Assembly (NCBI GenBank): GCA_004367505.1
Contig: SFCB01000102.1
Location: 1-62,453, forward strand
Length of the DNA: 62,453 nucleotides
Source: Chloroflexi bacterium OHK40
GTDB taxonomy: Bacteria > Chloroflexota > Chloroflexia > Chloroflexales > Chloroflexaceae
Direction of reading: 5' to 3'
Below, one piece after another: positions 19,604 through 36,407 of this stretch. Numbering within the stretch: the stretch's first letter is position 1; every line of letters starts with the position of its first letter. A program made the translations under genes and the position numbers. Below the pieces are notes generated by a model, which was not told the DNA's origin, did not search any database, and saw only the letters and a program-made list of their open reading frames with translations.

Positions 19604-19632
19604 TTGCCGGGAGCGCACGCATGTGCTATACT
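19604..19632 (+). promoter_or_regulatory. recA distal promoter, overlapped by a palindrome
   Basis: TTGCCG (19604-19609), 17 bp, then an extended -10 TGCTATACT (19624-19632). The -10 sits in the centre of the 27-bp dyad at 19617-19643, so a protein bound there would block this promoter. Confidence 0.6.
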
Positions 19633-19643
19633 AGCACATGCGT
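19617..19643. promoter_or_regulatory. 27-bp perfect palindrome upstream of recA (candidate operator)
   Basis: The arm ACGCATGTGCTA (19617-19628) is the exact reverse complement of TAGCACATGCGT (19632-19643), with TAC between them. The dyad covers the -10 of one recA promoter and ends 17 bp before the -35 of the second. Its position suggests an SOS-type repressor site (LexA or an analogue), but it matches neither the E. coli nor the Bacillus LexA box, so the binding protein is unknown. Confidence 0.65.
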
Positions 19644-19660
19644 ACGGGCGGCCTGTTGCG

Positions 19661-19689
19661 TTGACAGGGCCCCTCCCCTATAGTAGAGT
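19661..19689 (+). promoter_or_regulatory. recA proximal promoter
   Basis: A perfect TTGACA (19661-19666), a 17-bp spacer and TAGAGT (19684-19689). Transcription would begin near 19696, only 12 nt before the upstream GTG and 42 nt before the ATG at 19738. This favours the ATG as the start. Confidence 0.65.
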
Positions 19690-19737
19690 TTAGCGAGGAG
19701 AGCACGAGTGAGCACGAGCAACGGAGGAGCGCCCACG

Positions 19738-20796
19738 ATGGCCATCTCGCCGGAAAAAGAGAAGGCGCTGGCCGCGGCGATGAGCCAGATCGACCGCAAG
19801 TTCGGCAAAGGCTCGATCATGAAGATGGGCGAGGCCAGCTCCCGGCTCGCGATCGAGGTCATCCCAACGGGCGCCATCGCGCTCGATATCGCGCTCGGGG
19901 TAGGGGGTGTACCACGCGGCCGCGTCGTGGAGATCTACGGTCCAGAGAGCAGCGGCAAGACGACGCTGGCCCAGCATATCGTGGCCGAGGCCCAGAAGAT
20001 GGGCGGCGTCTGCGCCTTCATCGACGCCGAGCACGCCTTCGATCCGATCTACGCGGCGAACTGCGGCGTGAACATCGACGATCTGCTCGTCTCCCAGCCC
20101 GACACGGGGGAGCAGGCCCTGGAGATCTGCGAAACGCTGGTGCGCTCGAACGCGATCGACGTGATCGTCATCGACTCGGTGGCGGCGCTGGTACCACGGG
20201 CCGAGATCGAGGGCGACATGGGCGACTCGCTGCCGGGCCTGCAGGCCCGCCTGATGAGCCAGGCCCTGCGCAAACTTTCAGGGGCGATCAACAAGAGCCG
20301 CACGGTTGTGATCTTCCTCAACCAGCTACGCATGAAGATCGGCGTGATGTTTGGCTCCCCGGAGACGACCACCGGCGGTCAGGCCCTGAAGTTCTACGCC
20401 TCGGTCCGCCTGGACATTCGGCGCATCGAGACGTTGAAGAACGGCCAGGAAGCGATCGGCTCGCGGGCCCGGGTGAAGGTGATCAAGAACAAAGTCGCCC
20501 CACCCTTCCGCCAGGCCGAGTTCGACATTCTCGCCAACGAGGGGATCTCCCGCGAGGGTAACATCATCGACGTCGGCGTCGAGATGAATATCATCCGCAA
20601 GAGCGGCGCCTGGTTCTACCTGGGCGAGGATCGGCTGGGGCAGGGCCGCGAGAACGTGCGGGCCTTTTTGAAGGAGAACCCGGCCCTGGCGAGCGAGATC
20701 GAGGCCCTGATCAAGGCCCAGGCGCTCACGAACCCCACCGCCGTACCCGTTGCCGCCCCTGTGGCCGACGACGACGACGGTCTGTTCGAGGAGTAA
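19738..20796 (+). CDS. recA: RecA recombinase
   Basis: RecA forms filaments on single-stranded DNA, drives strand exchange and triggers SOS repressor cleavage. The 352-residue length is typical. The ATP site GPESSGKT is at residues 68-75, the second nucleotide motif [13 protein letters not shown] lies near residues 142-154, and the DNA-binding loop [19 protein letters not shown] near 196. The C-terminus is acidic (DDDDGLFEE) as in most RecAs. Two starts are possible: GTG at 19708 with AGGAG, or ATG at 19738 with the stronger GGAGGAG. I chose the ATG because it gives the usual N-terminus. recX follows 71 bp downstream behind a hairpin. Confidence 0.97.
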
Positions 20797-36308: not shown

Positions 36309-36407
36309 TGTAATCGATTATGCGTAAAGAATAAAACGTATGTGCGCATTTTTCCATGGCGTCCTGATGCGCTAAACACGCTGTGGAAAATCTGAAATGC
36401 GTTTCAG
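36309..36407. promoter_or_regulatory. AT-rich upstream region of the HU gene with two dyads
   Basis: Positions about 36305-36415 form the most AT-rich patch of the window. It contains TAATCGATTA (36309-36318), a perfect 10-bp palindrome, and CTGAAA (36392-36397) with TTTCAG (36402-36407). ATGCG occurs four times between 36318 and 36422. These may be protein-binding sites or a curved UP-like element. Confidence 0.4.

Follow-up and report, generated by a model that had tools for sequence, protein, structure and literature searches.

What kind of element is the long palindrome in front of recA? In the window (the whole stretch of 62,453 nucleotides that was analysed), a 27-bp perfect dyad (ACGCATGTGCTATACTAGCACATGCGT) with 12-bp arms and a 3-bp loop lies exactly where the first-pass annotation had placed it, at 19617-19643, spanning the -10 of the distal recA promoter. 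That annotation had taken the palindrome for a repressor site, and possibly for a new SOS operator of this lineage.

The palindrome and the two recA promoters

The gene behind the dyad is a clear recA (19708..20796, + strand, 362 aa; TIGR02012, 558 bits against a cut-off of 325), and two promoters precede it on the same strand. The distal promoter P1 (19604..19632) reads TTGCCG-17-TATACT, with its -35 at 19604-19609 and a TG before the -10 hexamer that gives an extended -10, TGC-TATACT (19624-19632). The proximal promoter P2 (19661..19689) reads TTGACA-17-TAGAGT and carries no LexA box; 17 bp separate its -35 from the end of the dyad. The hexamers, both 17-bp spacers and this distance agree with the earlier reading, and the promoters are supported by conservation: a TTGNNN-17-TANNNT promoter is found at the position of P1 in all 30 aligned box-bearing genomes, P2 is kept in 19 other genomes, and the shuffled recA upstream region yielded 0.0 promoter-like sites. 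The conservation around P2 extends beyond its hexamers (19661-19705; GCG-TTGACA-GCG ... TAGTAGAGTA), which may reflect either constraint on the promoter alone or the action of a further regulator.

The perfect arms had been called far beyond chance, which is too strong for their length alone. A search of the window with ACGCATGTGCTATACTAGCACATGCGT, allowing up to 3 mismatches, returned only the dyad itself (0 matches expected), and the window also holds other perfect dyads of 12-13 bp (I10, I11, I12, I16, I18, I19, I21 and I25); since such dyads are not rare in a G+C-rich window, arm length by itself is weak evidence. What does stand beyond chance is the conserved content of the site, as a matrix built from relatives ranks two parts of it first and third in the window. 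These parts are two predicted LexA boxes on the + strand: box 1, GCAC-GCAT-GTGC (19615..19626), lies within the P1 spacer and abuts the -10, and box 2, GCAC-ATGC-GTAC (19634..19645), lies just past it, starting 19 bp downstream of the start of box 1 with TATACT between them. The register of box 1 is 2 bp off from that of the dyad. Because the boxes mirror each other on either side of a 7-bp stretch with the -10, together they produce the long dyad at 19617..19643, a feature without strand. From these comparisons, we consider that the predicted regulatory unit is the pair of adjoining LexA-type boxes and not the 27-bp dyad.

Conservation of the boxes in Chloroflexales

Relatives' recA regions had been proposed as a test of the dyad, and they divide the two descriptions of the site. 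Perfect arms of at least 12 bp occur at recA in only 2 of 40 Chloroflexales genomes (this one, G000, and G019, where the arms reach 14 bp), but box 1, in the form [G/A]NAC-N4-GT[G/T]C immediately 5' of the -10, occurs in 39 of the 40, being absent from G007. Across the order, the TTG of the -35, the -10 and the 17 bp between them are kept along with it. Information content is close to 1.9 bits for the A and the C of its left half and for every base of GTGC, and about 0 in most flanking positions. The TG of the extended -10 of P1 comes from the GTGC half, so that operator and promoter overlap in these letters. At recA in families f2-f4, GAAC is always the left half and no clear second box is seen; since these families keep box 1 without a downstream arm, the ancestral unit was not the dyad.

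Box 2 belongs to a clade of 14 genomes of family f1, this genome included, and 12 of the 14 have it at the 19-bp spacing (in G020 it lies at 21 bp, and G022 lacks it). On a tree of RecA plus LexA, the trait requires only two changes, for which a gain and a loss are the simplest account, so that box 2 would have been gained about once, in this clade. Box 2 is associated with an altered left half in box 1 (Fisher p 0.0025), but this was dropped as evidence, as the tree gives two changes per trait and one independent pair; given that box 2 was gained about once, its coupling to a weakened left half of box 1 counts as a single event. As a separate observation on this clade's recA genes, that of G020 (L319) contains a long in-frame insert that splits RecA into residues 2-217 and 213-362 within one 732-aa frame, probably an intein, and the recA on contig C797 of G024 may resemble it.

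For an assessment of specificity, the matrix was trained on relatives only and used to scan the window together with about 298 kb of other DNA from this genome. Box 1 is the top site of the window and box 2 the third; in the ~298 kb, a single site (upstream of mutS) scores as high as box 1, and one more (at this genome's own lexA) equals the score of box 2. The commonest half-site here is GCAC. The second-best matrix site of the window, AAAC-GTAT-GTGC at 36334-36345, lies upstream of an HU-like gene at a distance of about 170 bp, outside the evident promoter of that gene, and is possibly due to chance.

The motif at lexA and other genes, and the LexA protein

The same motif recurs at lexA. In this genome and nearly all family members, the lexA promoter reads TTGACA-GCACAAGTGTTT-N-TATAAT, with a box of the form GCAC-AAGT-GTTT between -35 and -10. 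This box stands apart from the -10, has GTTT in place of GTGC, and occurs without a dyad. The lexA promoters of families f2-f4 have mostly GAAC forms, and outside the order the classic GAAC-N4-GTTC precedes lexA in many named Chloroflexota.

Genome-wide, GNAC-N4-GTGYTATA has 15 sites here, whereas N5 gives 2, N3 gives 2 and the reversed motif 1; in 41 genomes together it has 248 (a count that takes in recA itself), against 80, 63 and 88 in the controls. By the spacing controls, the share of matches expected by chance ranges from about 1/8 in this genome to about 1/3 in the 41. The genes 3' of the sites in this genome include recA, mutS, a DNA-repair radical SAM gene (called TIGR03916-like, because its match falls below the family's curated cut-off), a TrlF-like gene and a Sak4-like AAA ATPase. 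In relatives, sites also precede uvrC, nfo and ligA, genes identified from a reading of their sequences, and the matrix found further ones at uvrA and mutS. This genome's own uvrA has a degenerate box, GAAG-ATGT-GTGC, within a TTGCCC-17-TACCAT promoter. The predicted set is rich in repair functions, although for several of its members no link to repair is apparent. The earlier suggestion to look at other SOS genes was thus borne out in part, with a LexA-type box at lexA, mutS and uvrA; imuB and dnaE2, which it had named as test genes, were of less use: Y-family polymerases were found in just 6 of 31 genomes, and this genome's own dinB lacks a box.

Two families of small or phage-like proteins also appeared among the genes behind boxes. 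One, of about 54 aa (MYEKAIIYDPETRDFAMYLDGELVGFARTFQEAE...), was found 3' of a LexA-type box in 12 genomes, a number exceeded among the genes seen only by recA and lexA; its members are L078 (G000 C145:40793), L286, L272, L275, L251, L225, L231, L262, L249, L260, L268 and L291. No match was found in Pfam, NCBIfam or PHROG, and we regard the family as a candidate new SOS small protein. The other, of 225 aa, matches phage RecT-like annealing proteins weakly and is found behind a box in 7 genomes (L085 at G000 C266:33544, and six relatives). Together with the Sak4-like AAA ATPase (L084, G000 C262:49000), it suggests that phage-style recombination genes are apparently under SOS control. Separately, two mutS frames (G003 C181 and G032 C265) are 1416 and 1283 aa long with a gap at profile position 614, and possibly contain inteins.

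A candidate repressor for these sites is encoded in the genome, which has one clear LexA (TIGR00498 above cut-off, with the PF01726 DNA-binding and PF00717 S24 peptidase domains); its closest named relatives are from Chloroflexales (Oscillochloris, Chloroflexaceae). Outside the order, the core of the recognition helix is SSTSVVDYNL in nearly all Chloroflexota, with D at position 47 in 29 of 30 and N in one. In Chloroflexales it is SSTSVVAYNL, and position 47 is A in nearly all, S in G009 and G021, and V in G027, the latter with a classic box (GAACTTTTGTTC) at recA. By alignment, position 47 corresponds to E. coli Glu44, which is among the residues listed as contacting DNA in PMC3091678. The helix change and the drift of the box fit a change of specificity, without proving one.

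A proposed diverged LexA operator and its alternatives

Taking these observations together, we predict that the dyad at 19617-19643 is a double LexA operator of diverged form, to which we assign a probability of about 0.86. As the half-sites in the window are not GAAC/GTTC, the link to LexA rests on the conservation of the boxes and on the lexA promoter. From the sequence, we infer LexA binding, repression, cooperativity of the two boxes and induction by damage as follows: one LexA dimer would sit on box 1, overlapping the P1 spacer and the extended -10, and a second on box 2, so that the -10 hexamer would lie between the two dimers and RNA polymerase would be blocked at P1. Upon DNA damage, RecA filaments would trigger self-cleavage of LexA and P1 would open, while the box-free P2 would supply basal RecA. 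The earlier call of a repressor site would then hold as to place, predicted control of P1 and, with LexA, the most likely repressor; it does not hold as to the 27-bp dyad being the unit.

Were the dyad instead a single operator centred on the -10 and bound by a dimeric repressor other than LexA, its symmetry would be easier to understand: the arms, perfect over 12 bp here and over 14 bp in G019, are more symmetrical than two free boxes need to be, and the inner halves TGTGCTA...TAGCACA are retained in several family members. We nevertheless consider this improbable, given that families f2-f4 have box 1 without the downstream arm and that the motif at the lexA promoter is the box and not the dyad. 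Moreover, a whole-dyad search of this genome gave one near copy, on contig C271 with 1 mismatch, which lacks the GNAC half and has no recognised repair gene beside it. A stem-loop in RNA or a cruciform in DNA, to which perfect arms around a 3-bp loop would be suited, seems the least credible reading of all: a transcript starting about 7 bp past TATACT would leave most of the dyad untranscribed from P1, relatives retain the boxes without intact arms, and an Rfam search of the recA upstream region gave no match.

It could also be argued that box 1 is just a strong extended -10 element (GTGC-TATAMT) to which no regulator binds, since the extended -10 shares bases with its right half, and TGN-TATAAT is common to promoters in general. 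This, too, we hold to be very unlikely. The GNAC left half occurs at a fixed N4, and most of the excess is lost with N3 or N5 although the -10 part is the same; at lexA, furthermore, the box lies away from the -10 and ends in GTTT rather than GTGC.

Compared with known LexA boxes, the predicted double operator belongs to a familiar type in an altered form. The E. coli box, CTGT-N8-ACAG, is absent from 19604-19689 by reading. The Fibrobacter box, TGCNC-N4-GTGCA, has similar GCNC/GTGC half-sites, but it comes from an unrelated phylum and is a lead only, the likeness probably being convergent. The closest counterpart is the Gram-positive SOS box (DinR/LexA box) of B. subtilis, CGAAC-N4-GTTCG (quoted in PMC3091678), which shares the 12-bp core, the inverted 4-bp half-sites, the N4 spacing and the position over the recA and lexA promoters. 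Unlike in that box, the second base of the half-site is relaxed here (GCAC/GTGC and GTAC against GAAC/GTTC), and at recA the right half and the extended -10 have merged. Against a strict GAAC-N4-GTTC, the N4 spacing is found and the half-sites are not (GCAC/GTGC in box 1, GCAC/GTAC in box 2), each being one base away from GAAC/GTTC. The strict form occurs at recA only in G027, and intermediate GAAC-N4-GTGC boxes are found in Chloroflexales too. We therefore filed the site as a diverged variant; it shows the general features of a LexA operator, namely an inverted repeat over a recA promoter, the motif at lexA and at repair genes, and an encoded LexA. The statement that the site matches neither known box accordingly holds for E. 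coli, while the site is one base per half-site away from the Bacillus box, and the supposed new SOS operator is better described as a LexA form special to the lineage, a variant of a familiar switch rather than a new kind. The cyanobacterial LexA box, RGTACNNNDGTWCB (PMC3091678), has the same N4 geometry, and GTAC half-sites are also present in G004, G009, G011 and G021, but the commonest half-site here is not GTAC. Mycobacterial recA likewise has two promoters with a LexA box on one; its LexA-independent promoter has the motif tTGTCRgtg-8nt-TannnT (PMC5656591), outside of which P2 falls as an ordinary TTGACA-17-TAGAGT promoter.

The boxes would thus descend from the Gram-positive SOS box, the right half at recA having turned into GTGC in Chloroflexales. 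A fuller scenario, which we offer tentatively and at somewhat less than even odds, is that the change of Asp to Ala at LexA position 47 relaxed the second base of the half-site and let GTGC become part of the extended -10 in SOS promoters, after which one clade added the mirror-image box 2 across the recA -10 and so made the long palindrome. Among the open papers searched, none was found to give an experimental LexA box for Chloroflexales; the Chloroflexi collection of RegPrecise 3.0 may include a predicted LexA motif. The analysis provides a usable definition of the box and a first sketch of the regulon, including conserved genes of unknown function, and the boxes form a natural series, with GAAC-N4-GTTC at one end and GCAC-N4-GTGC at the other, that is paralleled by a change in the protein and offers a clean setting in which to study how repressor and site change together. 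Elsewhere in the window, the very end of the contig (1-136) carries a 60-bp tandem repeat in 2.3 copies with GGGGCGTCT inverted repeats.
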